Translations under genes and position numbers: made by a program
NCBI GenBank assembly: GCA_006383075.2
Contig: SMNH02000002.1
Span: 259,127 to 323,126, forward strand
Direction: 5' to 3'
DNA from: Kordia sp. TARA_039_SRF
GTDB lineage: Bacteria > Bacteroidota > Bacteroidia > Flavobacteriales > Flavobacteriaceae
Length of the DNA: 64,000 nt
Part shown: piece by piece, positions 46,343 through 63,948 of the stretch
Layout: every line of letters begins with the position of its first letter
How positions within the stretch are numbered: position 1 is the first letter of the stretch
Notes under the pieces: generated by a model
What the model saw: the letters and a program-made list of their open reading frames with translations, nothing else
What the model was told of the DNA's origin: nothing
Databases searched by the model: none

Positions 46343-46687
46343 TTACTCAGCTAATGCTCCAGCGATTACTCCTACTAAGAAAATTCCTCCGTATACTACG
46401 ATTGGTGCAACTCCACCTGCAACCATTTCTAATTGCTCGTCAGATAATTCTAATTCAGAAACATCTACTTGTCTTGGGATGTTTAAGTAAATTGTGTTAG
46501 GATCTGTTTGATCTTCTACAACAATACGCTGAGAGTTATCTAAGTTTAATTTTTTACCTGTAACTTGCTCAATTGCTGCATTAGGATTGCTAATTAATTG
46601 TTGCTTGAATTCTGGGCTCTCCCAAGCTTTAGCGATTAATGTGTTCATTAATTCTTGTCCTTCTTGTTGTTGTTTTGTAAATTCCAT
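46343..46687 (-). CDS. NHLP-leader RiPP precursor 3
   Basis: 114 residues. Leader with AWESPEFKQQLISNPNAAIEQVTG and LSDEQLEMVAGG. The 22-residue core VAPIVVYGGI... FLVGVIAGALAE contains no Ser, Thr or Cys, so it cannot be dehydrated; it has one Tyr (position 7). Glycine-rich and hydrophobic, similar to the cores of precursors 1 and 2. Confidence 0.91.
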   Translation of the reverse strand: MEFTKQQQEGQELMNTLIAKAWESPEFKQQLISNPNAAIEQVTGKKLNLDNSQRIVVEDQTDPNTIYLNIPRQVDVSELELSDEQLEMVAGGVAPIVVYGGIFLVGVIAGALAE

Positions 46688-46731: not shown

Positions 46732-47079
46732 TTAAAAAATGATTGGGTCAATTGGCATTGTGTCGTATGGTGGAAAAATTGGACATATAATGTCAATTGG
46801 TAATGATACGTAACTTCCACCTGCAACTGTTTCTAATTGCTCTTCGTTTAACTCTACATCGTCCGTTTGCTGTGCATGCGGAATGTTGATGTAAGTAGTA
46901 GAAGGATTACTTTGGTCTCTTACGACTATTTTTTTTCCTTCTGGAATGTTTAGCTTCACTCCTGTTAACTTTTCTACAGCTGCTAACGGGTTTTCAGTAA
47001 GCTCTCTTTTAAAGTCAGCATCTTCCCATGCTTTCTTTACTATCTGATGATAGAGTTTTTGTTCTTTGGTAAATTCCAT
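46732..47079 (-). CDS. NHLP-leader RiPP precursor 4 (Pro-rich core)
   Basis: 115 residues. The leader ends LNEEQLETVAGG. The 27-residue core (SYVSLPIDII, then CPIFPPYDTM, then PIDPIIF) holds a single Cys, two Ser, one Thr and six Pro, with the motif PID twice. One Cys allows at most one thioether. The DP[IL] motif is shared with precursors 5 and 6. Confidence 0.91.
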   Translation of the reverse strand: MEFTKEQKLYHQIVKKAWEDADFKRELTENPLAAVEKLTGVKLNIPEGKKIVVRDQSNPSTTYINIPHAQQTDDVELNEEQLETVAGGSYVSLPIDIICPIFPPYDTMPIDPIIF

Positions 47080-47118: not shown

Positions 47119-47469
47119 TTAATTTATACGTCCGTCTTTAATTGGATCTACTGGTAATATTGGCAACATTACATACGCTGGCCAAATAATTCCACCACCC
47201 GCAACTACTTCCAATTGGTCTTCAGACAATTCCAGATCTTCCATGTTTGGTTCCGCAGGAATATTTACATAAATCTTCTCTTGCGACGTCTGATCTCTTA
47301 CTATTAATGTTTTCCCTTCTGGAAGTTGTACACGTTCTCCAGTCGCCTTTTCTATAGCATCTAATGGATTCGCAATTAGTGCTGCTTTAAACGCATCATC
47401 GCTCCATGCTTTGTGAATTATTTTCTCTAATAATTCTTGAGATTTCTGTTGAGAACTTGTAGGTTTCAT
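47119..47469 (-). CDS. NHLP-leader RiPP precursor 5, first of the five-precursor operon
   Basis: 116 residues. The leader ends LSEDQLEVVAGG. The 24-residue core is GIIWPAYVML, then PILPVDPIKDGRIN, with no Ser, Thr or Cys. Tyr is at position 7 and there are one Trp and four Pro. A TTGGC-N23 promoter lies 37 bases upstream, and it is followed by precursors 4, 3, 2 and 1. Confidence 0.92.
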   Translation of the reverse strand: MKPTSSQQKSQELLEKIIHKAWSDDAFKAALIANPLDAIEKATGERVQLPEGKTLIVRDQTSQEKIYVNIPAEPNMEDLELSEDQLEVVAGGGIIWPAYVMLPILPVDPIKDGRIN

Positions 47470-47562: not shown

Positions 47563-49530
47563 TTAGGTATTTCTCTTGGAAACGAAGTACATTTTTAGCT
47601 CTCCTTTGCCTTTAGCCGTTATTTTACCACGATATTCAAAGGATAAATCTGATTCATTTTTCACCAATTCATACGTATGATGGCTGATATTTACTTTTCC
47701 AACTGCGCCATTGCTTTCCATACGACTTGCAATATTGACCGTATCGCCCCAAACATCGTATTGAAATTTTTTCACACCAACAATTCCTGCCACAATGGGT
47801 CCTACATGAATTCCGACACGCATTTCAAAAGCAGGTTTGTTTCTCGCTTCGTTTTCACTTTTTCGTTTTGCGACAAATTGTTGCATCTCTAATGATGCCA
47901 GAATAATATTCTTTACCGCATTTGCATCTGGTTTTGGCAAACCGCCAGCTGCCATGTACGCATCACCAATCGTTTTAATTTTTTCAATGCGGTACTTTTC
48001 AATGATGGCGTCAAATGCTTTGAAGCACACATTGATTTCTTCTACCAGTTCTTGTGGTGTTAAATGTGAAGCAGTTTCGGTGAACGATTTGAAATCGGTA
48101 AATAATATAGAAGCCGTTTCAAAGTCTTGCGCATCTACATAACCTTTCTCTTTCAATTCGTCTGCCACTTCTATTGGAAGAATATTGTGAAGTAAATGTT
48201 CCGAGCGATCTTTTTCAACTTGCAATCGTGCTTTCGATTTTTTTATGTAGCTCAATCTTCCAAAAATGGCAAGCGCAATAATGACCGCAAAACAAACCGC
48301 TATGATGAAAATGTTTCGCTGTTTTTCCTTTTTGGCTACTTCTTCCCTGTGTTGTTGTTTCAGAATGCGCTCCTTTTCAACATTGGCAATACTGTCTAAC
48401 AGCATTTCTTTTTCAAATTCCATATTCAGAATTTTATCAGAAGTTTGCTTCAAGTTCAAGCTGTCACGCAACAAATACATTTGTTCATTATACACAAGCG
48501 CTTTCGCCGGATTGTTAGTTAACTTATACGCATCGTACAAACATTTACACGCTTCTTCTTGAATGGAAATGACATCAATTTCTTTTGCAATGTCGAATCC
48601 TTGCTCACAATTTTTGATGGCTTCTCTTTTCTTGCCCAGTTTCTGTTTTACAAATCCCAACGCAATCAATGCAGAACTTTCGTGCAGACTACTTTTTGCT
48701 TGTCTTGAAATTTCTAAGGACTTATTATAGTTTGTAAGTGATTTTTCCAAATCGCCTCTTGCTTCATACAATTTTCCCAAGTTGTACAACACTTCCGCTT
48801 GCGTTTGGTTTTGATTGGTTTTGACAGAAAGCTCCAACGCCGTTTCAAAATTTTGAAAAGCAGCCTCGTAGTTTTCTTTTTTCTTGTAAATGCTTCCGAT
48901 ACTACTTAATACTAAAGAAAGTGCTTTTTCATCGTTGGATTTTCGGTAGATTTTTTCCGCGATTTCAAAATGTATTTTCGCATTTTCAAAATCGTTGAGC
49001 TGCATGTAAATGTTTCCAATATTTTGTGTAGTTCCTGCAACTTGCGCTTCGTTTTGCATTTCTTCGTGCAATTTCATCGCTCTTTTATAATGATCTAATG
49101 CTTTTGGAAAGTTTCCTAGGTAATAATAAATCGCGCCTTTGTTGTTGGTGGAAGAAGCAATTCCTTTTTTAAAACCAGCTTTTTCAAAGTATTCTCTGCT
49201 GTTTTCGAAATAGGTCAATGCTTTGGCAAATTCGCCTTGATAATAATAAATAGTTGCAATTTGATTGTAGCAATCTGCAATGGCTTTGTTGTTTTGTAAA
49301 TTTTCAAAAATGGCAAGACTTTCTTCTACCGCTTCCAAAGCTTTTTGAAAATCACGTTTTTTTACCTGTTGCTTGCTAAGTTTAAATAAACTATCGGCCT
49401 TTTGTTGTGAGTGATTGGTTGGCACAACTTCTTGCCCAAATTGTACACTTGACATAAAAACGAAAAAGAGAAACATGAACCAAGTACGCTTCTCTTTTCC
49501 AAAGGAATATTTTTTTTTAACCAATTTCAT
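47563..49530 (-). CDS. TPR-repeat membrane adenylate cyclase
   Basis: 655 residues. Signal-like head (FMFLFFVFMSSVQFGQ), then about seven TPR units (residues 40-340), a TM helix (IFIIAVCFAVIIALAIFG) and a C-terminal class III cyclase domain: metal-binding FTDF, IEKIKTIGDAYMA with the Lys, and YDVWGDTVNIASRME with the second metal Asp pattern. It likely makes cAMP in response to a periplasmic TPR-bound signal. It lies between precursor 6 (15 bases upstream) and the promoter of precursor 5. Confidence 0.88.
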   Translation of the reverse strand: MKLVKKKYSFGKEKRTWFMFLFFVFMSSVQFGQEVVPTNHSQQKADSLFKLSKQQVKKRDFQKALEAVEESLAIFENLQNNKAIADCYNQIATIYYYQGEFAKALTYFENSREYFEKAGFKKGIASSTNNKGAIYYYLGNFPKALDHYKRAMKLHEEMQNEAQVAGTTQNIGNIYMQLNDFENAKIHFEIAEKIYRKSNDEKALSLVLSSIGSIYKKKENYEAAFQNFETALELSVKTNQNQTQAEVLYNLGKLYEARGDLEKSLTNYNKSLEISRQAKSSLHESSALIALGFVKQKLGKKREAIKNCEQGFDIAKEIDVISIQEEACKCLYDAYKLTNNPAKALVYNEQMYLLRDSLNLKQTSDKILNMEFEKEMLLDSIANVEKERILKQQHREEVAKKEKQRNIFIIAVCFAVIIALAIFGRLSYIKKSKARLQVEKDRSEHLLHNILPIEVADELKEKGYVDAQDFETASILFTDFKSFTETASHLTPQELVEEINVCFKAFDAIIEKYRIEKIKTIGDAYMAAGGLPKPDANAVKNIILASLEMQQFVAKRKSENEARNKPAFEMRVGIHVGPIVAGIVGVKKFQYDVWGDTVNIASRMESNGAVGKVNISHHTYELVKNESDLSFEYRGKITAKGKGELKMYFVSKRNT

Positions 49531-49545
49531 TATCCCTATATTTTT

Positions 49546-49875
49546 TTATCCATCTGCCAATCCGTTTAGTGGATCTGCAGAATCCTGAATCACAGCACCT
49601 GGCAATGAACCACCACCAGCTACAATTTCTAATTGTTCTTCCGTCAACTCCATATCATCCATTGATGTTTCTGTTGGAATGTTGATGTAAATGGAAGAAG
49701 CATCTGTTTGATCGCGTACTACAAACTTTTTTCCTGCTGGAATGTTTAAACGCGTTCCTGTTAATTTTTCAATTGCATCCAAAGGATTTGAAGTAAGTTC
49801 CTGCTTAAAAGCAGCGTCTTCCCACGCTTTGACAACAATTTTTTCAAATAGTTTTTGTTCTTTAGTTAGTTCCAT
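49546..49875 (-). CDS. NHLP-leader RiPP precursor 6
   Basis: 109 residues. Leader with AWEDAAFKQELTSNPLDAIEKLTGTRLNIPAGKKFVVRDQ, ending LTEEQLEIVAGG. The 21-residue core GSLPGAVIQD... SADPLNGLADG is acidic and not very hydrophobic, with two Ser and no Cys. It has its own promoter and shares a transcript with the TPR-cyclase. Confidence 0.91.
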   Translation of the reverse strand: MELTKEQKLFEKIVVKAWEDAAFKQELTSNPLDAIEKLTGTRLNIPAGKKFVVRDQTDASSIYINIPTETSMDDMELTEEQLEIVAGGGSLPGAVIQDSADPLNGLADG

Positions 49876-49908
49876 AATGTTTCTAAATATTACCTGTTAA
49901 TACCATTT

Positions 49909-49947
49909 TAAAGTTATTGTATTGAAGACATATAAAAATGCCAAAAA
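49909..49947 (-). promoter_or_regulatory. TTGGC-N23 promoter of precursor 6 and TPR-cyclase
   Basis: Minus strand: TTTTTGGC (49940-49947), 23 bases, TAACTTTA (49909-49916). Confidence 0.65.
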
Positions 49948-49998
49948 CACTTATAAAAATGCTTTTTTCGTAAAATCTAAATGTCTGTAGTGTATGAC

Positions 49999-52143
49999 CT
50001 AGTGCACAACGCGTGTTTGTTTTCTACACCTTTTTAAGAATAATTTGGTAGGACCGTCCGATGGTATGATGTCATTGGCTGCTACAAAATGAATACTAGC
50101 CTTTTCATAGTTTTTACGTCGGTATTCTTTTAAGCCTTTAGCGTAGTGTTGAAGAAATTCTTTTTGCGAATGGCTGAGCGATACAGTTTTTTTAGCTACG
50201 ACTGAAAATATTTTTACAGGAGTCAATTTTCCTTTCACCATCACCGTGTCAATTTCTCTACAGTGAAAATCATTTTTGACTTCATTGTAAGTTTCTTCAC
50301 AAATAAGCATGTCTACTTTATAAGTTTTGGTGGCACTTTCCAGTCGCGCAGCAAGATTTACAGAGTCGCCAATCACCGTATATTCAAAACGTTTTTCTGA
50401 ACCGATATTTCCAGAAACTACATTTCCTGTACTAATTCCGATACCGATATTGAGTTGTGGTAACGAATTATTTTTTTTGTTTAAATCGGCGAGACTTTCA
50501 AACATATCCAACGCACAATTCACTGCATTTTTAGCATCTGTAATATTTGCGTACGGCACGCCAAAAACCGTCATAATAGCATCTCCGATGTATTTGTCGA
50601 GAATTCCGTTGTATTTATGAACAGAAACCAACATCGCTTCAAAATAACTGTTGAGCAATTCCACAATTTGAATCGCTCCAAATTCTTCGGTAAGTGTTGT
50701 AAAGTTTCGAATGTCTGAAAACAAAATGCTACATTTTGAAAAATTCCCTTGCAAGAGTGATAAGTTATCATGATGCATCACTTGCTTTACCAAATGTTGT
50801 GGAATGTAGCGACTGAGATTTGACTGAATGCGCTTCTCCTGAGAAACATCATTAAAAACCACAATGGCACCAATGATGTTTTCTTTCGCATCTTGCATAG
50901 GTAATACACTGAGATTGACCGTCACGGTTTTATCACGATTAATTTTAATTTTTAAATCTTCATGATAGTTTTTAGTGCCTGTTGCAATGGTCTCTTCACA
51001 ATGCGCAAATAACGGTTGCAGTCTTTTTACCACTTTTTGAATGGACGTATGAGCGAGTTTGGTAGATTTTTTCACGCCAAACATTCGGTAAAACGTTTCG
51101 TTAACTGTATTGATTTGCAATTGTTGATTTACCGTAACAATGCCTGTATCGAGATTTTGTACCAAAATATTCAAGTGATTTTTCATTCCTTGAATTTGAT
51201 CAAAGAGTTTCGCGTTTTCAATGGCAATACGTATTTGACTGGCAAAACCTTTTAAAATGTCCAAATCGTCTTCATTAAAGTTATTTCCACGTTTATTAAT
51301 GGCTTGAATCACGCCCAACACTTTATTATTAGCATTAAACACAGGAACACTTAAAATTGATTTGGTGTGATAGTTTGTTTTTTTATCAACTTCCGGATTG
51401 AAAAGTGGATGATCGTACGGATTGTTCACAATAAGTGGCTGTTGGGTTTTGGCAACATGCGCAACAATGCCTTTTTTGGTGCGAACGGTTTTGTTTTCGA
51501 GTCCTTTGGCAAAAATGGTCCACAATTCGCCTGTTGTTTCATCTACTAAAAATAACGAACTTCGATCAGCTTTGGTGATTTCCGCAGCTTTGTTCATCAC
51601 TACTTGAATGAGTTTGTTGAGATTCAATTCCGAAGAAACCGCTTTAAAAACTTCTAGTAAGGTTGAAAAGTTATTTTTGATATGCTCGCTCGCCAAATAC
51701 AGCTTACTATTCTTAACAATCAACGTAATCGCTGCTGCAAAACTGTCTAAAATTTTGACATCATTTTCCGTAAAAACTCCGTCAATTTTATTCAAACATT
51801 GCAAAGCACCAATCGGTGTTCCGTTTGCATTGACCACAGGCACACACACGATTGATTTCGTTTCAAAGTGCAATTGTGCATCGTACGAAGTATCAAAAAT
51901 AGTACTACGTTGTACGTTATTTTCAATAATTGCTTCTTGCTGTTGAAACATCGTTCCCACAACGCCTTTTCCAACAGGAATGCTGATACTGATGTGTTGC
52001 AGACCTTGCGCTACCAAACTCTCTAGTGTAGCGTTTTGCTTGTTGTACAAGAAAAAAGTACTTCTTTCGGCTTGTACGGTATTAGAGATTTGTTGGAGAA
52101 TAGCGTTGACTTCTGTGATTATTTTTTCGCTTTTCTTTACCAT
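49999..52143 (-). CDS. GAF-GAF-PAS-class III nucleotide cyclase
   Basis: 714 residues, soluble. Two GAF domains (about 1-150 and 165-320; RSTFFLYN and RSSLFLVDETTGELW), a PAS-like domain (330-440, LDTGIVTVNQQLQINTVNETFYRMFG), then a cyclase domain: CSILFSDIRNFTTL, LDKYIGDAIMTVFG and YTVIGDSVNLAARLES. The pattern fits an adenylate cyclase controlled by a small ligand. Its start overlaps the end of the DUF7005-like gene by 62 bases in another frame. Confidence 0.9.
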   Translation of the reverse strand: MVKKSEKIITEVNAILQQISNTVQAERSTFFLYNKQNATLESLVAQGLQHISISIPVGKGVVGTMFQQQEAIIENNVQRSTIFDTSYDAQLHFETKSIVCVPVVNANGTPIGALQCLNKIDGVFTENDVKILDSFAAAITLIVKNSKLYLASEHIKNNFSTLLEVFKAVSSELNLNKLIQVVMNKAAEITKADRSSLFLVDETTGELWTIFAKGLENKTVRTKKGIVAHVAKTQQPLIVNNPYDHPLFNPEVDKKTNYHTKSILSVPVFNANNKVLGVIQAINKRGNNFNEDDLDILKGFASQIRIAIENAKLFDQIQGMKNHLNILVQNLDTGIVTVNQQLQINTVNETFYRMFGVKKSTKLAHTSIQKVVKRLQPLFAHCEETIATGTKNYHEDLKIKINRDKTVTVNLSVLPMQDAKENIIGAIVVFNDVSQEKRIQSNLSRYIPQHLVKQVMHHDNLSLLQGNFSKCSILFSDIRNFTTLTEEFGAIQIVELLNSYFEAMLVSVHKYNGILDKYIGDAIMTVFGVPYANITDAKNAVNCALDMFESLADLNKKNNSLPQLNIGIGISTGNVVSGNIGSEKRFEYTVIGDSVNLAARLESATKTYKVDMLICEETYNEVKNDFHCREIDTVMVKGKLTPVKIFSVVAKKTVSLSHSQKEFLQHYAKGLKEYRRKNYEKASIHFVAANDIIPSDGPTKLFLKRCRKQTRVVH

Positions 52144-53269
52144 GATACGGGGATATCCTAATAGTATTATATGTTTCTATAAGTTGTTGTTCTCCTTTTG
52201 CCGAAGCCATTGTAAGTAAATCGACTTCGCAAAGTGTTTGAATTCTTCGCATTCGTTCTTCAGTGTTTGTACTGTTTCCGAGCGAATAATCAAATTTTTC
52301 AATTGCCGTTGCTGCATTTTTTATAATGGTGTGCAATCCTTTAAAAGCTGCTGCCGATAGTTGCACAGGCTCTTGATAATTTTCCAATCGTCCACCTTTT
52401 CTGTAGCTTGGATAGTTTTCCAATCCGATGAATTGTAAAAACCAATCTTTGTTATACTGTCCAAACGCTTTGGTTATTCCTGCATAATCAGCAATGAGTT
52501 CGTCGTGCATGTTGTTTGCTATTACTCCATATCGTTGCAGTGTAAAAAGATGTACACATTCATGTTCTTTCCGAATGGCAACAGATGCTTTTTGCCAATC
52601 TGCTTCACTTTTTCCAACAGCTGTATGCGACACATTACTATAATTGCTTGTACTCAATACAATCAATTTATCTTTATATAGATGAGGATTTGGTAGGATA
52701 TTTTTTTTGAATTCCTCGTTCCAGTTTCCGTACGGATGCTGTGCTTGCCAACGTTTTTGTAATGTTTTGATACGATGCCAATTGTTCAATCCGTTGATGA
52801 ACAAAGCGCCCATTGATTGAGGCAACTCTTTTGGCTCGTTTTTGTTTGCCAATGCACAACAAATCGTATAAAAATCGTCTTTGTTTGAAACAGTCATCAC
52901 AGGAACTTTTCCTATCAAGGGTGTTTCATAAAGTTCTAATGCAATATGCTCCGGGTTTTGCAACTGTAATTCTTTATTGCTCTCCACTACTCTTCCACGC
53001 AAGGTTGCATTTTTGTAAGCTTCTGTCGTAGAAATGTTTTTTTCAACAGGAAATAGCAATTGCGGAATGTACTTTTTCAGTGTTGAAATCACTCCTTTTT
53101 CCGCGGCTTCTGCTACATAGCCTTCCCAAGTTTCCAAATAACTATCGGACGATTCAACTTCCGTTTTTGCAGAAATAAACTTGTTGTTACAATACGTCAG
53201 TAGTTGCTCAATAGCGATTTCGCTATGAACTATATTTTGTAAAAACACTCGTTTTTCCTGCTCATTCAT
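52082..53269 (-). CDS. DUF7005-like protein with an HExxH motif
   Basis: 395 residues. HECVH at 236-240 (REHECVHLFTLQRYG) followed by DELIADYAG (256-264) and GLENYPSYRKGGRLENYQEP. HExxH plus a downstream acid suggests a zinc hydrolase. I recall this conserved block as DUF7005, seen near NHLP systems, but without certainty. It could be a peptidase or modifying enzyme for the peptides, or for immunity. It lies between the ABC transporter and the GAF cyclase. Confidence 0.72.
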   Translation of the reverse strand: MNEQEKRVFLQNIVHSEIAIEQLLTYCNNKFISAKTEVESSDSYLETWEGYVAEAAEKGVISTLKKYIPQLLFPVEKNISTTEAYKNATLRGRVVESNKELQLQNPEHIALELYETPLIGKVPVMTVSNKDDFYTICCALANKNEPKELPQSMGALFINGLNNWHRIKTLQKRWQAQHPYGNWNEEFKKNILPNPHLYKDKLIVLSTSNYSNVSHTAVGKSEADWQKASVAIRKEHECVHLFTLQRYGVIANNMHDELIADYAGITKAFGQYNKDWFLQFIGLENYPSYRKGGRLENYQEPVQLSAAAFKGLHTIIKNAATAIEKFDYSLGNSTNTEERMRRIQTLCEVDLLTMASAKGEQQLIETYNTIRISPYHGKEKRKNNHRSQRYSPTNL

Positions 53270-53278
53270 TTGTTTTCT

Positions 53279-56191
53279 TTAAGCGATTTGACGTTTTGCT
53301 AAGCTGGTAAATATTCCATTTTGCTCCATCAATTCTTCATAGGTTCCTGCTTCTACAATGGTTCCTTTATCTAACACGTAAATACAGTCTGCATTTTTTA
53401 CCGTACTCAATCGGTGTGCAATAACGATTCGTGTGGCTTGTAATTTGTCAAGACTTTCAGATACAATATTTTGTGTTCTGTTGTCCAAAGCACTCGTAGC
53501 TTCATCCATAAAGAGCAATCTTGGTTTGTGTACAATGGCGCGTGCAATCATTAAGCGTTGTCGTTGTCCACCCGAAAATGTTCCTGCGCCTTCGCTGATT
53601 ACCGTGTGCATTTCCATCGGCATTTGTTTGATATCTTCTTCCATTCCTGCCATACGTGCGGCTTCCCAAGCATCTTCTAGGGTTAATTCGGAGTTTCCAA
53701 CAATGTTTTTATAGATACTTCCCGACATTAACGCTCCATTTTGCAATACCACACCAATTTGTCGTCGTACCAAATCTTTGTTCATGGAATCATACGCGTC
53801 TCCGTCATAGTAGATAGAACCTACTTCTGGCGATTCAAAGCCTAACAATAAGCGCATGATGGTTGATTTACCCGAACCTGAAGTTCCTACAAAAGCTACC
53901 ATTTGTCCCGGTTTTATTTTGAAAGAAACGTCTTTTAGAATGAGTGGCTGTTCTGCGTGATAGCGGAAGGATACTGCATTCATTTCTATTTCTCCAATCA
54001 ATTCTCCAGGATCGGTACTTTGCTCAGAAGATTCTGGAATTTCCTCTAAAATTGGTTTTACACGTTCGTACAACGTAATGATATTCAACGAAGTGATTAA
54101 CGCCATGCTCATTTTTAAACAATCTGTCAAAAATTGATTGAACGCACTGATAAATGCCATAAAAGCTCCCACAGAAATCATGGTTCCTACTACTGCGGCA
54201 TTCGTTACGGTGTAGTAAATGAACGCAAAGAAAAATATACTGGTAAATAGCGGATAGGAACTGTTAAACACTTCCACAAAGTTTTGATAGCTTCCTGAGC
54301 TGAATCCTAGTTGTTTGAGTTTGGCGAATTTTTGTGCCCATAACGTAAAGACTCTTTTTTCGCCGCCTGTAATTCGTATTTTGGTAATTCCCGAAAGGAA
54401 TTCAAAGAGAAAACCTTGCAAATCTCCCTGCACATCAGATATTTGACGGTCATATTTTAATTTTTTCCAACCAATAACTGTCATAAAAATTACAGCCAAT
54501 ACTGCCAATCCAACGCCAATCCACGCCAAACTTGGCTCGTAATAGAATAAGAGAATAAGATTGACAAAAGAGAATGCACCACTCAATACGGCAGTCATCA
54601 CGGTATTGGAAAGGACTTGACGTATTCCGTTGATACTTAATGCTCTGTTGGTTAAGTCACCCGCAGAATATTTTTTATAGAACGTTACAGGCAATCGCAA
54701 GAGATGATCCATAACTCCAGCTTGCAAATTGATACTCGATTTGGTTTCAACCCGCAATTGCAATACACCTTGAACTAGCTGTAATCCTGCAGATACCAAA
54801 CCTAACATGAGCATGATGGCGAATATTTCAAAATGCAAGGATTTGTCTGCCGAAGGAATGACATCGTCAAACATGACTCCTGATAAGATTGGAACAAGTA
54901 ATCCAATAACACTTCCTGCAAAGGCTGCTAATAACAAGTATTTTGCGTCTTTTTTGATGCCTTGCGCTGCAAAACTGGCAATTTTTTTAACCGATGTCAT
55001 GATTTCACCAAAACCATAGAAAAACATGTAACAGATAGGTTCTAACTGCTCTGCAATTTCGTGGTTAACTTTGATGGCTTCTCCCGTAGTGACATCTTTT
55101 AGAAGATAGCTTTGTGATGTTTCTTGAATTAATGCTACAGGACGTTTATCTTCTTTGTAAAATGCTAATAAATGTCCGTTTTCCTCTTTCCACCACGTAC
55201 CGCGAAGTATGATTTTTCGAACACGTACTTTGGAAGATTGTGCAATGGCATATAATTGATTGGTCGTACTGTTTTGGTACGATTCCATATATTTTGGCGC
55301 TTCAAAGTTAAAACCAATGGTGTTTCCTATGAGTTGACACGTAGCATATAGGTCACTATTTACTTTTTGGTCGTCAAACGTTACCATTACTTTTTTATCT
55401 TGCTTCCCAACAACAATTGTACGAAGCTGATCGAGTGTTTTGGTAAGGTTCTCTGACTCCGAAGTTACTTTTTCTTCGATGCGATGTTGCTCTTCCGCAA
55501 TGAGACGCTCGTAGTTTTTGAGGAGTTTTTGGTAGAAATGGTCTTGTAAATCATTCAGCGAAAGCATAAAGAATATTTCATCTTTGAACGCTTGGCGTGT
55601 ACTGATGACTTTGATTTCGCAGTCTTTGCTTTGCGATTTGAGCCACAAACTACCCGATACAGCAAAAGGATAGTTAAATTCGGTTTCGGTATTGATTTCC
55701 GTATTTTCCGCGTATTTACTTGCTTTTCCTTTTACAACCGTACACCAAGCCAATCCTTTGGTTGGAAAAGCTACAGCGTCTTGCTTTAACGGAATTGTTT
55801 CAGAAGGATTCAACGCTGTGTACAATCGTGGAGCGTTTACTTGCTGTATTCTGTATGCAGTTTTTAGAATCCATTTTTCAACCATGCTTTTGAGAAAAAT
55901 GGTATCTACATCGAGCAGTTTGTTTTTGTTGATAGAAATGAGCGAAGCGCCTTTACTTACAATCAGCAGTTTAATGTTTTGTTCGTTTTCTTTTGAGGAA
56001 ATTAAACTGAATAACAACTCTCCTGCTTTGGCACTATAGAGATAGCGCAATGCACTCGCACATTCTCCGTTTTCGTCAATGTCTGCATAAAAAACATCTA
56101 CTTCTCCAGATGTAATCATCCAAAAACGATCGTGTTCCCTAAGAATTAGCGAATGATTAGCTTCCAATCTTATTTTTTTATTTTCAGACAT
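53279..56191 (-). CDS. NHLM-type ABC transporter, permease/ATP-binding protein
   Basis: 970 residues. The N-terminal about 250 residues resemble a cNMP-binding-like domain (LREHDRFWMITSGEVDVFYAD) but no C39 peptidase. Six TM helices from about residue 415 to 700, then an ABC ATPase with GTSGSGKST, QNGALMSGSIYKNI, FSGGQRQRLMIARA and LLFMDEATSALD. The family (TIGR03797) exports peptides with NHLP leaders together with the C39 partner. It is 6 bases downstream of that partner. Confidence 0.92.
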   Translation of the reverse strand: MSENKKIRLEANHSLILREHDRFWMITSGEVDVFYADIDENGECASALRYLYSAKAGELLFSLISSKENEQNIKLLIVSKGASLISINKNKLLDVDTIFLKSMVEKWILKTAYRIQQVNAPRLYTALNPSETIPLKQDAVAFPTKGLAWCTVVKGKASKYAENTEINTETEFNYPFAVSGSLWLKSQSKDCEIKVISTRQAFKDEIFFMLSLNDLQDHFYQKLLKNYERLIAEEQHRIEEKVTSESENLTKTLDQLRTIVVGKQDKKVMVTFDDQKVNSDLYATCQLIGNTIGFNFEAPKYMESYQNSTTNQLYAIAQSSKVRVRKIILRGTWWKEENGHLLAFYKEDKRPVALIQETSQSYLLKDVTTGEAIKVNHEIAEQLEPICYMFFYGFGEIMTSVKKIASFAAQGIKKDAKYLLLAAFAGSVIGLLVPILSGVMFDDVIPSADKSLHFEIFAIMLMLGLVSAGLQLVQGVLQLRVETKSSINLQAGVMDHLLRLPVTFYKKYSAGDLTNRALSINGIRQVLSNTVMTAVLSGAFSFVNLILLFYYEPSLAWIGVGLAVLAVIFMTVIGWKKLKYDRQISDVQGDLQGFLFEFLSGITKIRITGGEKRVFTLWAQKFAKLKQLGFSSGSYQNFVEVFNSSYPLFTSIFFFAFIYYTVTNAAVVGTMISVGAFMAFISAFNQFLTDCLKMSMALITSLNIITLYERVKPILEEIPESSEQSTDPGELIGEIEMNAVSFRYHAEQPLILKDVSFKIKPGQMVAFVGTSGSGKSTIMRLLLGFESPEVGSIYYDGDAYDSMNKDLVRRQIGVVLQNGALMSGSIYKNIVGNSELTLEDAWEAARMAGMEEDIKQMPMEMHTVISEGAGTFSGGQRQRLMIARAIVHKPRLLFMDEATSALDNRTQNIVSESLDKLQATRIVIAHRLSTVKNADCIYVLDKGTIVEAGTYEELMEQNGIFTSLAKRQIA

Positions 56192-56197
56192 ATCAAA

Positions 56198-58393
56198 TTA
56201 TTTTGAATCAATTAGTTTCGCATACGTTCCTTGTAAGTTGAGCAACTCTTGATGCGTTCCTCTTTCTACAATTTTTCCAAATTCCATGACAATGATTTCG
56301 TCACAATCCATAATGGTACTCAATCTGTGTGCTACAATCAAACATGTACAACCGCGTTTTTTGATGTTGTCCATAACGATTTTTTCCGATTTTGGGTCTA
56401 ACGCACTTGTAGCTTCATCCATGATTAAAAACGAAGGATTGAGCGCTAGAGCGCGTGCAATTTCCAAGCGTTGGCGTTGTCCTCCACTAAAGTTTGCACC
56501 ACGTTCAGAAACTTCACTGTCGTACGCATTAGCTCTTGCCGCAATGACATCGTGAATGGCTGCATCTTTTGCCGATTGAATGATGTGCTTTTCTGGAATA
56601 TTTGTATCCCAAAAAGCTATATTTTCTTGAATGGTTCCTTTAAACATCAATACTTCTTGATCAATTACCGCAACCGATTCTGTGATGACGTGACGTGGAA
56701 TGTCTTTTCTGAGTTTTCCATCGAAACGTATTTCGCCTTCCCACGGTTCGTATAATCCTGAGGCAATTCGCGCTACGGTAGATTTCCCACTTCCCGATCC
56801 ACCAACCAAAGCAACTCTGCTTCCTGGTTTTAGTGTAAGACTGAAATCGTTAATCAATGCTGGCATCGTAGTGTTATAGCCAAACGTGATGTTTTTCATT
56901 TCAAAATGTCCCGTCAGCTTGTTGAGTTTTGCACTTTCTTTGATGGCTGCCGTTTCTTCATCATCTTCTTTAAATTCACTCGCAATTTCATAGTTGAGTA
57001 CATCGTCAATACGTCCCATATCGCCTTCTACTTCTTGCAACATGCTTCCCGTAGTAACGAGTTGATTTACAGGTCCCATAAAATTATTCATCAAGTATAG
57101 AAAAGCTACCAACATTCCCAACGTCATTTGTCCGTCCATTACACGCATTGCTCCTGTTCCTAGTACAATAGTTGTGGTTAGTGACATGAGTAATGGTGGA
57201 ATGATGTTGAGTCGCGTTGTCAGCCAACCCAATTCTTGCTGTGCATTCATCACTTTTGCCAAATATCCTGTCCAAGTTGTAAAAAAGTCATTTTCTCTTC
57301 CAGATGCTTTGAGCGTTTCAATCATGCTGATTCCTGAGGTGGTTGTTCCGAGAAGTTTTCCGCTTTCGTTCATGAATCGTCTGTTTCCGTCTTTACGCGC
57401 TCTTGAAACATATCGTAAGGCAAAAATGTTTAAGGCTGCCATTCCAATTCCAATTATTGTTAAGACTACATCGTACGAAAACATCAACATGGCGTAAAAA
57501 ACGACGACAATCACATTTAAAACGGCGTTTGCCAAATCGCCACTGAGCAGTTTTGCTACTTTATCATTGAGTGAAACTCTGTTTCCAATTTCTCCGCTGT
57601 AGCGTTGTGTAAAAAATGCTATGGGTAGATGAAAAACATGCCAGAGAAATTTACTCGAAGACGCGAGCGCCAGTTTTGTTTCTAATCGTAAGAGATAGTA
57701 TTGCTGTAAGTAGACCAACACCGAATTAACAATTAAAATACCGCCCATGACCAGCAATAACGGCATGACAAATTCTGAGATTTGATTGACCAAATATTTG
57801 TCAATAAACACTTTGGTAAATGACGGAATGACTAATCCTGGAATTACGAGAAAGAGACTCGCCAAAATGATGTAGGTAATCGCCATTTTAGAATTCGTGA
57901 TGCGTTCTGCCAACGAACTCATCATGCTTTTTTTCTCGTTTCCTTTTTCAAACGTTTCTGTAGGTTTGAATGTTAGTACAACTCCCGTAAAAGCATCGTC
58001 GAATTCTTCGTGACTTACATGGTATCTTCCTTGCGCAGGATCGCTCAGATATACTTTATTTTTGGTAAATCCTTCGATAACTAGAAAGTGATTGAAGTTC
58101 CAAAAAATAATGGCAGGCATTTGTATTTCTTTCAACTTTTCGATGGATTTTGCATATCCTTTGGCTTCCATTCCAAAGGTTCGTGCAGCTTTGAGAATGT
58201 TAGATGCTTTGAGTCCATCTCTGGATACACCACAAGCAATTCGCAGTTTTTCAAGCGGAACAAATTTTCCGTGATATCCTAGAATGATGCTTAATGCTGC
58301 TGCACCACATTCTACTGCCTCCATTTGTAAAACGGAAGGCGTTTTTACTGGCTTTGGCAGTTTTATCTTTTTTTCTTCTTTTACTTTGAACAT
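56198..58393 (-). CDS. NHLM-type ABC transporter with C39 peptidase
   Basis: 731 residues. The N-terminal C39 peptidase has catalytic C29 (MEAVECGAAALS), H101 (FNHFLVIEG) and D117 (LSDPAQGRY). Six TM helices follow, then the ATPase (GGSGSGKST, FSGGQRQRLEIARALALN, LIMDEATSALD). It should cut the leader after the double Gly and export the core peptide (TIGR03796). Second gene of the export block. Confidence 0.94.
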   Translation of the reverse strand: MFKVKEEKKIKLPKPVKTPSVLQMEAVECGAAALSIILGYHGKFVPLEKLRIACGVSRDGLKASNILKAARTFGMEAKGYAKSIEKLKEIQMPAIIFWNFNHFLVIEGFTKNKVYLSDPAQGRYHVSHEEFDDAFTGVVLTFKPTETFEKGNEKKSMMSSLAERITNSKMAITYIILASLFLVIPGLVIPSFTKVFIDKYLVNQISEFVMPLLLVMGGILIVNSVLVYLQQYYLLRLETKLALASSSKFLWHVFHLPIAFFTQRYSGEIGNRVSLNDKVAKLLSGDLANAVLNVIVVVFYAMLMFSYDVVLTIIGIGMAALNIFALRYVSRARKDGNRRFMNESGKLLGTTTSGISMIETLKASGRENDFFTTWTGYLAKVMNAQQELGWLTTRLNIIPPLLMSLTTTIVLGTGAMRVMDGQMTLGMLVAFLYLMNNFMGPVNQLVTTGSMLQEVEGDMGRIDDVLNYEIASEFKEDDEETAAIKESAKLNKLTGHFEMKNITFGYNTTMPALINDFSLTLKPGSRVALVGGSGSGKSTVARIASGLYEPWEGEIRFDGKLRKDIPRHVITESVAVIDQEVLMFKGTIQENIAFWDTNIPEKHIIQSAKDAAIHDVIAARANAYDSEVSERGANFSGGQRQRLEIARALALNPSFLIMDEATSALDPKSEKIVMDNIKKRGCTCLIVAHRLSTIMDCDEIIVMEFGKIVERGTHQELLNLQGTYAKLIDSK

Positions 58394-58407
58394 GGCGTGT
58401 GTGTTTT

Positions 58408-59673
58408 TTAATAGAGATCAAAGAATTTTTTCAACGCTGGTACAACAATCGCTGCTGGCGGTTCACTTTTTACGGTAATTTTCCCCATACAGGAAGTTCC
58501 TTCATTGATAGCAACTTCAGGGCCTTTGGCAGACGTCCATTTGAAACCGCTATATGAGTTTTCGTCTTTTTCAAATTCGACGTATACTTCAAATAAAGCT
58601 CCTTGCGACAACAATCCTTGAACTAATTGGTCGTTTTTAACGGTCATCATCATTCCTTTTTGCGTAATTGGAAAGTCAGATACATAGGTTACTTTTCCTT
58701 TCATAAAACCGTATTCTTGTGGCTGCACCGTTGAAGGAACCACAAGTGCTTCCATACCTTCTTTGATTTTTTTACCATCTTGTGACGGAATGTATAATAC
58801 ACCGCGTAATTTGTTATCCGCCGTGAGTTGATTTTGATTTTTTAGTTTGAACAACGGACTTCCTTGTCGTACAATAACACCAGCATCAGTAAGTAATTCA
58901 ACGACTTCACCAGCGTGTGCACTTTTGATATTTGTTTGAATGTCATAGCGTTCTTGCAAATACGTCAGTTGACGTTCAGTTTCTGCAATACGCTGTTTGC
59001 TCATGTTTATTTTTTGTTGCAAATCAAATCCGAGATTGAGTTTACGACTCGAAGTTTGTACTTGTTGTCCTTTTAGACTTTCTATGGTATTGATAGAAGC
59101 TTCTATTTGCTGTTCTGTATTCACCACTTGTGTTCGCGTGATGAGTCCTTGCTCTAACAGTCCTTTTTCGGTGTCTAATTGATTTCTTAGAAATTCTAAA
59201 TTTTTCTTTTCAGATTCAATTTGCATGACAATTGTAGTTCGCTGCTGCTGAATTAACTCACTTTGCAAGCGCGTATCTTGATTTCCAAACGACAGCAATT
59301 GTTGCAAATCAAATTTGCGTTCTTCCAAAGAAGCTTTTACTTCTTCAATTTGTTGGTATAATTCTGGCTGTTCCACTGTTGCTATAACATCTCCTTCATT
59401 TACTACATCGCCAATAGCTACGTTTAAGCTAATTAGTTGTCCTTGCGAGGTTGCTACTACTTCGTGAATTTCTCCTCCTAACAATACTCCAACTACATTG
59501 AGCTTTGTTTTTACATTGCCAAAAAATGCCCATATAATTCCAGTTGCCAAGATGAGTGTAATCGTTATCAATGCTATCCAGCCTCTTGGGCTTGTCACTT
59601 TGATTAACTGATCTAATTTTTCGGGTGTAGAGAGTTTTTCAATTGCTGCTTTTCTAAAAAATCCTGCTGCCAT
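58408..59673 (-). CDS. NHLM secretion HlyD-type adaptor
   Basis: 421 residues. One TM helix near residue 34 (WIALITITLILATGIIWAFFG), a long coiled coil (about residues 100-260) and a lipoyl/beta-barrel part (GEIHEVVATSQGQLISLNVAIGDVV, AGEVVELLTDAGVIVRQGSPL). It joins the ABC exporter to TolC across the periplasm (TIGR03794 pattern). Confidence 0.92.
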   Translation of the reverse strand: MAAGFFRKAAIEKLSTPEKLDQLIKVTSPRGWIALITITLILATGIIWAFFGNVKTKLNVVGVLLGGEIHEVVATSQGQLISLNVAIGDVVNEGDVIATVEQPELYQQIEEVKASLEERKFDLQQLLSFGNQDTRLQSELIQQQRTTIVMQIESEKKNLEFLRNQLDTEKGLLEQGLITRTQVVNTEQQIEASINTIESLKGQQVQTSSRKLNLGFDLQQKINMSKQRIAETERQLTYLQERYDIQTNIKSAHAGEVVELLTDAGVIVRQGSPLFKLKNQNQLTADNKLRGVLYIPSQDGKKIKEGMEALVVPSTVQPQEYGFMKGKVTYVSDFPITQKGMMMTVKNDQLVQGLLSQGALFEVYVEFEKDENSYSGFKWTSAKGPEVAINEGTSCMGKITVKSEPPAAIVVPALKKFFDLY

Positions 59674-59694
59674 GATTCTATTTTTTTACTGTTT

Positions 59695-61260
59695 TTAATT
59701 GCTTGGAATTGTGTAAAACAATTCTCTATTTATGTTTACTGCGGTACCGTTGTCCTTTTTTAACAACAGTGTTCCTGTTTCGTATCGAAGGTTGATGATT
59801 GCATTGGCAAACTGCTGCTGCGCTTGCAAATAATCGAGTTGTGCAAAGGTTAAGCGCTCTTGAAATAAGATAAGATTCAACAGTGTTGTGAGTCCGTTTT
59901 GAAATTTTACTTGCTCATTGTTGAATACTTCTTGGTAAAATTCTAACGACTCCAATGCTTTTTCAAGAATTAAAACGCTATTGTCCAAGTTGTTCATCGC
60001 GATAGATACATTTAAGTCTATGTTTCGTTGCAAGTTGTTGTTTGCGATTTCCTGGTCTTTAAACGCCACTTCATTTTGAATGAATCGACCTTTTGCTAAG
60101 TTGTTATTTACAGGAAATGAAAAACGCAATCCGAGTCCGAAACCGACATCTCTTCCTTCGTTTCGCGAAAAAGTTGCCAACGCTCTGTCCAAACCATTGC
60201 CCATATTCATACCGCCGTAACTAACAAAACCCGTTAAATCGAGTTGTGGTTGCTTGTCGTTTTGCGCTAACTTGAGTTGTAATTCAATAGCTTCTTGTGT
60301 TTTCTTTGCTGCAATGATGTCCAATCGATTGTTTTGCGCGATTTCCTTAAAATCGTCAATATTAAAATCGTTGACGTAACCAGACTCTATGATGGAAGGA
60401 AACTCATCCATCGGGTTTCCTAGTCGTTTACTTTCTTCCTCACTGATTCCTATAACACGTCCCAAGTTTAGTTTGGCACTATACAATGCTTGCTCCGCCA
60501 CTTTGGTTTGTCGTTCCTGACTTGCCAAATCTGCTTGAATTTGTGCTAAATCGCCCGCAGGTTTTTTATCGGCTTTTACGAGTTCTTGCGTAATTTCTAA
60601 CACACGTCGTACTCTCGCTTCGTTTTGTTCAAAAACTTGTAAACTTTTGTATGCAGCTACGTACTGCCAATATGCTGTACCCATTTGCAATAATTCGAAT
60701 GAGTTGGCAAATTCGGCGTTGTCATCCACACTATCTAGGTTTAACTTGGAAGCTTCCTCCAATGCTGTGGCTATTTTTTTTCCTCTTCCGCGAAGTAACG
60801 GTTGCGTTAACGAAAGCGTACTTGTTACAATATGTTCTTGTGTAAATGCGCCTACGTCTTGGTTGAATCGGTTCAGTGGAAAATTATCATTCACCATGGT
60901 ATAATCTACCGAAAGGTTCACTGTAAAGCTGGAACGAAATTTACGTTGCAATCCCACAGATGCGCCTGTAAATCGAGAGTTTAAATCTCCCGTAAGGAAA
61001 CTACTGCGCGGATCCGCTTCAAACGGATTTAAGTTGTTTCTGGTAAGTGATAAACCTGACGTTAATTGATAGTCAAACGCACTGGTTTGAATTTTTAGTC
61101 CTCCTTCTGCGTTTGAAACCGTTAAGATGTTTCTTTTGATAATTGGATTTGTACCAAAGGTAAGTTCAGATAGTGTGACAATATCCGCAGGAATTGTGTT
61201 TTGTCCGTACGATAATACGGAAAACACTAAAAGACTTATGAGTACAATTTTATTGTTCAT
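59695..61260 (-). CDS. TolC-family outer-membrane efflux protein
   Basis: 521 residues. Signal peptide (ISLLVFSVLSYGQ), then the paired OEP helices with SLTQPLLRGRGKKIATALEEA, LLQMGTAYWQYVAAYKSLQVFEQNEARVRRVLEI and QEVFNNEQVKFQNGLTTLLNLILFQERLTFAQLDYLQAQQQ. It is the outer-membrane duct of the RiPP exporter. The gap to the HlyD gene is 21 bases. Confidence 0.93.
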   Translation of the reverse strand: MNNKIVLISLLVFSVLSYGQNTIPADIVTLSELTFGTNPIIKRNILTVSNAEGGLKIQTSAFDYQLTSGLSLTRNNLNPFEADPRSSFLTGDLNSRFTGASVGLQRKFRSSFTVNLSVDYTMVNDNFPLNRFNQDVGAFTQEHIVTSTLSLTQPLLRGRGKKIATALEEASKLNLDSVDDNAEFANSFELLQMGTAYWQYVAAYKSLQVFEQNEARVRRVLEITQELVKADKKPAGDLAQIQADLASQERQTKVAEQALYSAKLNLGRVIGISEEESKRLGNPMDEFPSIIESGYVNDFNIDDFKEIAQNNRLDIIAAKKTQEAIELQLKLAQNDKQPQLDLTGFVSYGGMNMGNGLDRALATFSRNEGRDVGFGLGLRFSFPVNNNLAKGRFIQNEVAFKDQEIANNNLQRNIDLNVSIAMNNLDNSVLILEKALESLEFYQEVFNNEQVKFQNGLTTLLNLILFQERLTFAQLDYLQAQQQFANAIINLRYETGTLLLKKDNGTAVNINRELFYTIPSN

Positions 61261-61271
61261 CTTATTGTGGT

Positions 61272-61790
61272 TTATACTTCTGAAAATTTTTGTAAAATTT
61301 GTCCAAATCGTGAGCCTGCTTGCGAAACTCCGTCCAACACATTTTCGTCGATTAAGTCTGCTTCGTCTGGCGAACCATATCCTAATTGACTTGTTGTTTT
61401 TCGCAATCGGTTGGATAGGAATAATGAGATAGCATAATAGAAATTTGCTCTAAATTCTAGGTTGTTTGCCAATCTGCTATTCATCAATTCTCTGGAAATA
61501 CAAAACACTGTGGTAGCTTTGGAAGCAATCACAGAAACTGACGGAGGCCTAGATTCTAAGAAAGACATTTCTCCGACAATTTCACCAGCACCAATTAGCG
61601 CAATGTGTTTATCACTAACACCATCTGTGATGGATAATTGTCCAGAAAGCACAATGTATAAATTGTCAATTGCCTCTCCTTTTTTAATTAATCGGTCCCC
61701 AACTTCTAGTTCAGCTTTACTACCATTGTGGATCATCCATTCTATATCTAAATCACTCAAATGACCTAATAAAAAAAGTACGCGTTTCAT
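61272..61790 (-). CDS. Cyclic-nucleotide-binding-domain protein without HTH
   Basis: 172 residues. The CNBD has YIVLSGQLSITDG and GEIVGEMSFLESRPPSVSV. The Arg expected to bind the cyclic phosphate (as R82 in CRP) seems replaced by Ser, so ligand binding is uncertain. No DNA-binding domain follows; the tail ends GSRFGQILQKFSEV. It is the first gene of the export operon and could sense the cyclase product. Confidence 0.85.
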   Translation of the reverse strand: MKRVLFLLGHLSDLDIEWMIHNGSKAELEVGDRLIKKGEAIDNLYIVLSGQLSITDGVSDKHIALIGAGEIVGEMSFLESRPPSVSVIASKATTVFCISRELMNSRLANNLEFRANFYYAISLFLSNRLRKTTSQLGYGSPDEADLIDENVLDGVSQAGSRFGQILQKFSEV

Positions 61791-62042: not shown

Positions 62043-62393
62043 TTACGACCAACTACGCACAACAGATTTTATTCCGTGTACGACATAGTTCCAATCAATA
62101 GTTGTCGTAGAGCCTGAAGCTCCTGAAATGTCTTCCAGTTGATTGTCACTAAGTTCGGTATTTCCATAATTATTTGGTTTCGCAGGTATATTTAGATAAA
62201 TATGGTTTGGATTCGTTTGGTCTTCTACTACGAGTATTTTCCCTTCAGGGACGTTCCCTTCTTTTCCCGTAAATTTATTGAGCGTTTCTAAAGGCTTTTT
62301 GATTAAGTTCTTTTTGAAAACGCTATCTTCCCAAGCTTTTTTGTAAATGCTTGTAAGGAAATATTGTGCTTTTTGCTGTTCTGTTAATGCCAT
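62043..62393 (-). CDS. NHLP-leader RiPP precursor 7 (atypical cleavage site)
   Basis: 116 residues. Leader with AWEDSVFKKNLIKKPLETLNKFTG and YLNIPAKPN, but the end reads LSDNQLEDISGASGS instead of VAGG, so the double Gly is missing. The core is rich in Ser/Thr at its start (GSTTTID) and holds WNYVVHGIKSVV and RSWS. It has a Lys that an acyltransferase could use. Monocistronic, with its own promoter and terminator. Confidence 0.88.
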   Translation of the reverse strand: MALTEQQKAQYFLTSIYKKAWEDSVFKKNLIKKPLETLNKFTGKEGNVPEGKILVVEDQTNPNHIYLNIPAKPNNYGNTELSDNQLEDISGASGSTTTIDWNYVVHGIKSVVRSWS

Positions 62394-62497: not shown

Positions 62498-63157
62498 TTA
62501 AAGTCTTCTTGCTTTTAGAAGTTCTTTTGGAAACACACCATATTGCTGATTGAACAGTTTTGAAAAATAGTGCGTATCATAATACCCTACTGCGTATGAT
62601 ATTTGCGAAATAGTATCGTAAATATAATCGTCAATGAATTGTTTGGCTTTGTGCAAGCGCAGTATTCTAATGTATTTGTTTGGCGTAAGATGTAGCAAAC
62701 TTTTGATTTTCCGATGCAATTGACGTTCGCTTACCGCCAATTTATATGACAAATCGTAAAGATTGAGGTCTTTATGTTTGATGTTTTTATACACTTCACT
62801 CTCTAACTCCATCAACCATTTAGCATCTTGTTTAGAGATTTTATTCGGGTTGATTTCTTGTTTGCACATTGATTGTACGCGCTCATTGCTATAATATATT
62901 TGGTAAATTAATGGTAGGTTTTCGGTAGTTGCGTCAGAGCTTGCGCGCTCTACCACTTTTTCTATTAAGCTAGCAATTTGTTGACTGCTTGAAAAAATGA
63001 TATCGCTCGTATTGTCTTGTGTTGTCACTATCTTCCCCTTTGATAGTTTTTGATTGGCTTCTATAATGGAATCCAAAGGTGCTTTGATTTCCTTTACGAA
63101 TTGCATCAACATTTCTGAAGAACTCCAATCAATGTTATTAGCATTCAAATTATTCAT
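62498..63157 (-). CDS. AraC-family regulator with a degenerate H-box
   Basis: 219 residues. The C-terminal AraC HTH pair is clear: YKLAVSERQLHRKIKSLLHLTPNKYIRILRLHKAKQFI and ISYAVGYYDTHYFSKLFNQQYGVFPKEL. Around residues 18-40, MQFVKEIKAPLDSIIEANQKL looks like a histidine-kinase dimerisation helix (F..EI.TPL..I) in which the phospho-accepting His is a Lys. It may derive from a hybrid two-component protein. It is the likely local regulator of the RiPP promoters. Confidence 0.85.
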   Translation of the reverse strand: MNNLNANNIDWSSSEMLMQFVKEIKAPLDSIIEANQKLSKGKIVTTQDNTSDIIFSSSQQIASLIEKVVERASSDATTENLPLIYQIYYSNERVQSMCKQEINPNKISKQDAKWLMELESEVYKNIKHKDLNLYDLSYKLAVSERQLHRKIKSLLHLTPNKYIRILRLHKAKQFIDDYIYDTISQISYAVGYYDTHYFSKLFNQQYGVFPKELLKARRL

Positions 63158-63859: not shown

Positions 63860-63879
63860 GATTATATATGTTTTATACT

Positions 63880-63887
63880 CAAAGCTA
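63880..63887 (-). promoter_or_regulatory. -10 box of the acyltransferase-AraC unit
   Basis: TAGCTTTG (TANNTTTG) on the minus strand, 20 bases before the ATG. No good -33 TTTG at the right distance was found. Confidence 0.45.
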
Positions 63888-63948
63888 AATAGCATCACTT
63901 TCAGTTTTTTTACACAAAAGAGTAGTTCTGAATTGGTTACATAAAAAA

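Follow-up and report, generated by a model that had tools for sequence, protein, structure and literature searches.

The window analysed here, a stretch of 64,000 nucleotides (nt) from contig SMNH02000002.1 of Kordia sp. TARA_039_SRF, carries on its minus strand a gene cluster for ribosomally synthesized and post-translationally modified peptides (RiPPs) in which two class III nucleotide cyclases are embedded. The exporter models TIGR03794, TIGR03796 and TIGR03797, together with one precursor (precursor 6), all match above their NCBIfam cut-offs, and the locus is thus an NHLP RiPP cluster with an NHLM exporter. The TIGR03797 match is the single one above cut-off in the assembly. Read along the minus strand, the genes run from an AraC-type regulator through an NHLP-like precursor, a stand-alone protein with a cyclic nucleotide-binding domain (CNBD), TolC, HlyD, two ABC proteins (ABC1 and ABC2), a DUF7005 protein and a GAF-GAF-PAS cyclase (CYC2), and continue with precursor 6, a TPR cyclase (CYC1), precursors 5 to 1, a glycosyltransferase-like gene and a LanM-type dehydratase domain. 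ABC2 refers throughout to the ABC protein of 970 amino acids (aa), and CNBD, where called stand-alone, to the separate protein. The main finding concerns CYC1, which belongs to a clade that keeps a steady place among NHLP precursors in Bacteroidota. The parts of the cluster that bear on it are:

61272-61790, minus strand: stand-alone CNBD protein, 172 aa, phosphate-binding Arg replaced by Pro83 (PF00027, 2.8e-16)
53279-56191, minus strand: ABC2, an ABC exporter with a tandem cyclic nucleotide-binding (CNB)-like N-terminus at about aa 1-240 (TIGR03797, 869 bits, cut-off 709; N-terminus from model and Foldseek)
49999-52143, minus strand: CYC2, a GAF-GAF-PAS class III cyclase, 714 aa, adenylate-type residues (K/T) (PF00211, 5.7e-32)
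49546-49875, minus strand: NHLP precursor 6, the gene just ahead of CYC1 (TIGR03793, 60.1 bits, cut-off 50.9)
47563-49530, minus strand: CYC1, 655 aa, with a hydrophobic N-terminus, TPR region, transmembrane (TM) segment and class III cyclase domain, adenylate-type residues (K/D) (PF00211, 8.6e-57)
47119-47469, minus strand: NHLP precursor 5 (from sequence; seed of the NHLP profile)

A preliminary description of this DNA had reported two cyclases, a stand-alone CNBD protein and an ABC2 N-terminus resembling a CNBD, and their open reading frames (ORFs) are indeed found at those positions on the minus strand. It had likewise placed CYC1 between precursors 6 and 5, from which it is separated by gaps of 15 and 93 nt, respectively. 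Intergenic gaps from the CNBD gene through the DUF7005 gene measure 6 to 21 nt. The same description had CYC2 ending the export operon, which is not clearly the case: the gene shares 62 nt with that of DUF7005, and 123 nt separate it from precursor 6, which comes next on that strand. Given the short gaps, the CYC2/DUF7005 overlap and the spacing of precursor 6 and CYC1, co-transcription of the cluster genes is plausible.

The distribution of the cyclases was followed in at least 28 cassettes, a sample found mostly via ABC2 similarity (family, phylum and genus samples plus a contig scan). It comprises 27 Bacteroidota cassettes with a CNBD and a long ABC2 plus one plasmid of Spirosoma oryzicola, and these are also the rows of the ABC2 tree, which, like the other trees, is a quick one. 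Duplicates were dropped before counting (L090 equals G179, L092 equals G320, L096 equals G127 and L113 equals L105), and a Spirochaetaceae locus (L110; 33% identity, no CNBD in view) was excluded. An intact CYC1 is present in 26 of the 28 cassettes, and in G783 the gene is split on a short contig. On the same strand, the closest neighbour upstream of CYC1 is NHLP-like in 26 of 26 cases, two of the ORFs being short (bit scores 34 and 38); CYC1 is separated from part or all of the cassette by a contig break in G782 and G784. A PF00211 search covering 26 of the cassette genomes in full gave at least one match in each, and in nine the TPR cyclase of the cluster is the sole match at 1e-6. The block formed by a precursor, CYC1, further precursors and the dehydratase sits on the opposite side of the exporter genes in Flavobacterium, Chryseobacterium and Spirosoma. 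Views of 20 kb had given the impression that Flavobacterium and Chryseobacterium cassettes were without cyclases, which is rejected, as CYC1 is located next to the precursors, at a distance of some 14-23 kb from ABC2. The 98.5-kb Spirosoma oryzicola plasmid (L264) holds the TPR cyclase, precursors, CNBD and exporter together, with a lantibiotic dehydratase nearby.

CYC2 is present in 10 of the 28 cassettes. Its pattern takes two changes on the ABC2 tree and is confined to one half of the family; it is a lineage-specific add-on. The statement that cyclases occur in half of the clusters is wrong for CYC1 and true for CYC2 only. These counts bear out the earlier view that the cyclases are part of the RiPP cluster; related clusters do carry cyclases, whose absence from all of them had been named as a refutation. 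The further claim of two dedicated cyclases applies to 9 of 28 genomes or records, in which CYC1 and CYC2 stand together, but does not extend to the rest.

The catalytic residues of both cyclases are well kept. CYC1 shows D, K, D, D, N and R invariantly in 26 of 26 aligned rows (25 genes, one of them in two cuts) and in the Spirosoma plasmid copy, and CYC2 shows D, K, D, T, N and R in 10 of 10. We take these to be the two metal Asp residues, a Lys that contacts adenine, paired with Asp in CYC1 and with Thr in CYC2, and the Asn and Arg of the transition state. By these residues both enzymes look intact and are predicted to be adenylate-type; among solved chains, matches to the cyclase domain are mostly adenylate cyclases, with guanylyl cyclases further down. 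Ratios of nonsynonymous to synonymous substitution rates against Kordia periserrulae are 0.045 and 0.065 for the cyclases and 0.040 for ABC2, indicating purifying selection near the exporter's value (ABC2 is 96-97% identical to that of the same-genus genome G179 and of K. periserrulae). Through recurrence in other genomes and purifying selection, the link between cyclases and cluster exceeds chance.

How specific the CYC1 clade is to the cassette can be seen in larger samples. Among 397 Flavobacteriaceae genomes, the CYC1 profile exceeds 1000 bits in four (G000, G127, G179 and G320), which are exactly the cassette holders, and the next best score is 739. The stretches surrounding 15 lower-scoring CYC1 relatives contain no NHLP genes. 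In genome G204 the ABC2 is distant (39%) and sits on a short contig, with no CNBD in view and no CYC1-like cyclase. Within the genus, ABC2 is found in 4 of 11 genomes and CYC1 in the same four. In a cyclase tree, a branch with SH-aLRT 99 separates the 26 NHLP-linked CYC1s from 46 other cyclases. In the phylum sample, TIGR03797 occurs in 31 of 395 genomes, 29 of whose neighbourhoods were viewed (G630 and G646, at contig ends, were left out), and a CNBD accompanies it in seven. All seven CNBD-bearing genomes have a strong class III cyclase, and the other TIGR03797 genomes are rejected as cyclase carriers (0/24 at 1e-30), a split that is confounded by lineage (four genera versus four). A cyclase on contig C20 of the Kordia assembly (L028) is not counted for this genome, because the contig reads by eye like a proteobacterial contaminant. 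On contig C8 of the same assembly (L029, 8907-11058), two short precursor-like ORFs with GG motifs adjoin another, divergent class III cyclase.

CYC1 has two hydrophobic stretches, judged by eye, one N-terminal and the second just ahead of the cyclase linker, and by this topology its TPR domain most likely faces the periplasm. A structural model of the TPR region is a regular superhelix (pLDDT 89.6), whose best solved matches are LGN/Pins TPR domains complexed with protein partners; RapF and a phage Rap-peptide complex appear lower down. Three cysteines of the domain (Cys308, Cys328 and Cys330) are invariant in 25 of 25 rows of the NHLP clade and occur in 9 of 17 relatives outside it; a switch based on a disulfide or on redox state is possible. 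The two GAF domains in CYC2 were rejected as obvious cyclic AMP (cAMP) receptors: their NKxnFx3D, which lacks the next Glu of the NKFDE motif, is a common GAF pattern.

The second group of candidate signalling parts is the CNB modules of the exporter. The phosphate-binding cassette of the stand-alone CNBD reads GEMSFLESRPPSVSV and, when aligned to that of PKG (GERALLYDEPRSATI), keeps the Gly-Glu pair and the following Ser, with Pro83 at the position of the Arg. Proline occupies this position in 28 of 28 Bacteroidota stand-alone CNBDs and also in those of Azospirillum, Ensifer and Shinella, and the cyanobacterial copies that were read have a residue other than Arg. The resulting GE...PPS loop is conserved rather than decayed across Bacteroidota and alphaproteobacteria, and is identical with and without CYC2. 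Of the features of a canonical CNBD that binds cyclic nucleoside monophosphates (cNMPs), the protein thus has the Gly-Glu but not the Arg, and by its cassette it is not a canonical cAMP receptor.

The N-terminus of ABC2 gives no Pfam CNBD match. An AlphaFold model of aa 1-410 (pLDDT 80.7) shows two CNB-like barrels in the first 240 residues, and Foldseek matches it to the tandem CNB domains of PKG and PKA-R (E 2e-7, probability 1.00), with low global TM-scores (0.13-0.21) and with cupin barrels (oxalate decarboxylase) matching too, from E 2.3e-5. In module 1, Gly57 is found in 25 of 26 rows, Glu58 in 22 and Lys or Arg at position 74 in 24 (Gln in two), in a loop whose alignment is uncertain; this module could still be a phosphate site. 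An hhalign comparison of the ABC2 module with the stand-alone CNBD is unusable (13 aligned columns, 0.6% probability).

Beyond the cassettes above, the CNBD protein recurs in plasmid NHLM loci of Azospirillum, Ensifer, Shinella, two Nostoc, Kovacikia and Pseudanabaena. The simple ORF caller misses some genes, among them the Azospirillum and Ensifer CNBDs, for which the record annotation was used, and the M. phyllosphaerae locus is cut at the record end. Among 17 plasmid records with the adaptor, an NHLM-type CNBD is present in eight and a cyclase is in view in three, all with a CNBD. The Shinella locus has a class III cyclase gene whose end is 9 nt ahead of HlyD, and in Ensifer a divergent one stands beside the NHLM operon; both have a FecR-domain gene nearby. 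These two cyclases pair the Lys with Ser, not Asp or Thr, and their N-termini resemble CHASE2 by eye, not TPR. The FecR/CHASE2-cyclase pair is frequent in rhizobia, and the Shinella and Ensifer cases are therefore suggestive only. A plasmid of Bradyrhizobium sp. CB82 (L272, 11293-11772) carries a CNBD gene with the Arg and a canonical-looking cassette, divergent near an NHLM operon that has no cyclase in view.

The remaining genes of the cluster are listed below. NCBIfam bit scores for precursors refer to precursor 6 and to the one upstream of the exporter genes, and precursors 1-5 were called from sequence.

62498-63157, minus strand: AraC-type regulator heading the cluster, retained next to the cassette in most relatives (PF12833)
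62043-62393, minus strand: NHLP-like precursor upstream of the exporter genes (TIGR03793, 48.4 bits, just below the cut-off of 50.9)
59695-61260, minus strand: TolC-family outer-membrane protein (PF02321)
58408-59673, minus strand: NHLM HlyD-type adaptor (TIGR03794, 324 bits, cut-off 156)
56198-58393, minus strand: ABC1, a C39 peptidase plus ABC exporter (TIGR03796, 1070 bits, cut-off 853)
52082-53269, minus strand: DUF7005 protein with HExxH (PF22541)
46732-47079, minus strand: NHLP precursor 4 (from sequence)
46343-46687, minus strand: NHLP precursor 3 (from sequence)
45902-46249, minus strand: NHLP precursor 2 (from sequence)
45522-45869, minus strand: NHLP precursor 1 (from sequence; weak NHase_alpha match)
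43942-45126, minus strand: UDP-glycosyltransferase-like protein (PF00201)
42385-43923, minus strand: LanM-type dehydratase domain alone (PF13575, 8.3e-81)

Several of these invite comment. The DUF7005 gene (52082-53269) comes immediately after ABC2 in most relatives, and its product retains HExxH and a downstream DE(L/I)xxDY in 27 aligned rows (a few possibly the same cluster in a different cut), which gives it the look of an enzyme of the zinc metallopeptidase type. The domain scan found no LanC domain with the LanM-type dehydratase domain (DUF4135), which adjoins the UDP-glycosyltransferase-like gene (42385-45126), and the product is possibly a dehydrated, perhaps glycosylated peptide. An acyltransferase-like protein at 63179-63898, with a weak FeeM match (0.006, below cut-off), is encoded beside the AraC gene in many relatives and might lipidate the peptide. 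Immediately downstream of the cluster (40807-42018) there is a tyrosine-type integrase, and an integrase-like gene follows CYC2 in the relative locus L103; both hint at mobility.

Taken as a whole, the explanation we favour, with moderate confidence, is that the cluster is a Bacteroidota NHLP (proteusin-type) RiPP system predicted to carry its own cAMP module, with CYC1 most likely a sensor in the envelope, dedicated to this system, that signals the status of the peptide or exporter via cAMP. CYC1 would be a membrane adenylate cyclase with a periplasmic TPR domain, the groove of which most likely senses the exported peptide, the cut leader or the status of the exporter, and the cAMP made inside the cell would act through a receptor to set expression or activity of the system. 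Where present, CYC2 would supply an extra cytosolic input under GAF/PAS control, and the CNB modules of the exporter would be structural or read another ligand. A bolder form, to which we give a minority chance, is a peptide-to-cAMP loop: the periplasmic TPR domain of CYC1 would bind the exported NHLP peptide or cut leader and turn on cAMP synthesis, and the cAMP produced, or a nucleotide derived from it, would be read by the non-canonical exporter CNBs, with feedback contained in one transferable cluster.

Several observations weigh against a sensor dedicated to the cluster and signalling through cAMP. TPR folds are generic, and peptide sensing is therefore a guess from place and fold. Related TPR-like-TM-cyclases are common, with matches to the CYC1 profile at 1e-60 in 83 of the 397 Flavobacteriaceae genomes; strong PF00211 matches (1e-30) occur in 117 of the 395 phylum genomes overall; and some genomes hold extra cyclases (11 matches in G781, and in G719 a second strong match that is not near NHLP genes). 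In G791, the cassette and CYC2 are present, but a PF00211 whole-genome search did not find CYC1. The frequency of related cyclases outside such clusters and the patchiness of CYC2 fit a passenger role, in which the cyclases take part in signalling for the cell at large, their link to the cluster being one of lineage alone. We consider this quite unlikely, as the CYC1 clade accompanies only the cassette in the Flavobacteriaceae sample and stays beside the precursors though the block sits on either side of the exporter, and differently built cyclases occur in two alphaproteobacterial NHLM operons. On the receptor side, a canonical cAMP site was seen by eye in none of seven readable CNBDs of the Kordia genome and, in five relatives, in none of the best 30 of 87 PF00027 matches, hence in none of 37 readable CNBDs, six of which are the cassettes' own; the system could therefore lead to a new cAMP receptor.

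The preliminary description had proposed that export is gated by a cyclic nucleotide made on the spot, which we read as cAMP from CYC1 and CYC2 binding the CNBD protein and the ABC2 N-terminus. The cyclase-cluster link it built on has stood, and CNBD, CNB-like N-terminus and cyclases do co-occur, in the phylum (7/7 against 0/24, lineage-confounded) as in the plasmids, where a cyclase is in view at 3 of 8 NHLM loci with a CNBD and 0 of 9 without; the Gly-Glu and Ser of the CNBD and the Gly57, mostly Glu58 and basic residue 74 of ABC2 module 1 would also suit it. Direct gating by cNMP binding is nevertheless weakened, because the phosphate-binding Arg is Pro in every one of the 28 stand-alone CNBDs. 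In addition, their loop is the same whether CYC2 is present or not, 5 of the 8 plasmid CNBD loci have no cyclase in view, and a family 2B encapsulin CNB with a changed cassette is reported to bind no cyclic nucleotide (PMC12407261). On balance we find direct gating doubtful. It is unlikely, too, that the CNB modules read a nucleoside or other small ligand while the cyclases act in parallel via a separate receptor. The conservation of the GE...PPS loop in two bacterial groups would fit, as would the trypanosomatid PKA-R CNBs that lack the Arg and are reported to bind nucleosides using an extra Glu (A202 position; PMC10959531); that position is Ser76 here, however, and the signature is hence not the trypanosomatid one. 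A Pycsar-like defence pair of cyclase and CNBD effector is very improbable: PADLOC PycC profiles match both cyclases and PycTIR profiles match the CNBD (1e-10), but the 172-aa CNBD has PF00027 only, with neither a TIR nor a TM effector and no such fusion, and the cyclases have adenylate-type residues and are embedded in an exporter cluster.

The CYC1 clade tied to NHLP precursors provides a concrete candidate partner for the CNB-like parts of NHLM exporters and suggests second-messenger control of proteusin-type peptides in Bacteroidota. Should the exporter-linked CNBs bind another ligand, the GE...PPS loop would mark a new CNB specificity. Among the papers listed in searches of the open-access literature, none describes nucleotide cyclases in NHLP clusters or links a signal to the CNB-like portions of these exporters. 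In the portion of Haft 2010 (PMC2887384) that was available, the term "cyclic nucleotide" is absent and the two mentions of "cyclase" stand in the reference list (lantibiotic cyclases). A Kordia proteusin-like cluster, which may or may not be the present one, is pictured in PMC10734526, the main text of which lacks the word "cyclase".

Compared with known NHLP/proteusin clusters carrying the NHLM trio (TIGR03793/03794/03796/03797), the system shares the leader family, exporter trio, C39 peptidase and LanM-type dehydratase, and differs in having a TPR adenylate-type cyclase among the precursors and sometimes a GAF cyclase as well. A CNBD protein of this transport type is already named by TIGR03896 (cyc_nuc_ocin, bacteriocin-type transport-associated), which we take to be a two-copy CNB family. 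TIGR03896 is the best NCBIfam match of 61272-61790, but at 116.5 bits it falls below the cut-off of 161.05, covers profile positions 140-316 only and corresponds to one CNB copy. The TOMM kinase/cyclase fusion TIGR03903 likewise has a cyclase domain within a RiPP system, though the cyclases here score 24.2 and 17.6 bits and do not reach its cut-off of 705.75. Adenylate cyclases also lie near RiPP enzymes in branch-6 graspetide loci, which are ATP-grasp/YcaO systems with no NHLM exporter mentioned in the relevant passage (PMC8939145). Encapsulin family 2B and trypanosomatid PKA-R, in the papers cited above, have a CNB fold with a changed phosphate-binding cassette, as here, whereas the present CNB is part of a peptide exporter and is without the trypanosomatid Glu. 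Finally, CYC1 and CYC2 have the same catalytic residues as class III adenylate cyclases of the tmAC and bacterial Cya type, from which CYC1 is set apart by its TPR sensor and its constant place among RiPP precursors. The novel elements are this clade, in its constant position, and the loop with Pro in place of Arg in the CNBDs tied to the exporter.

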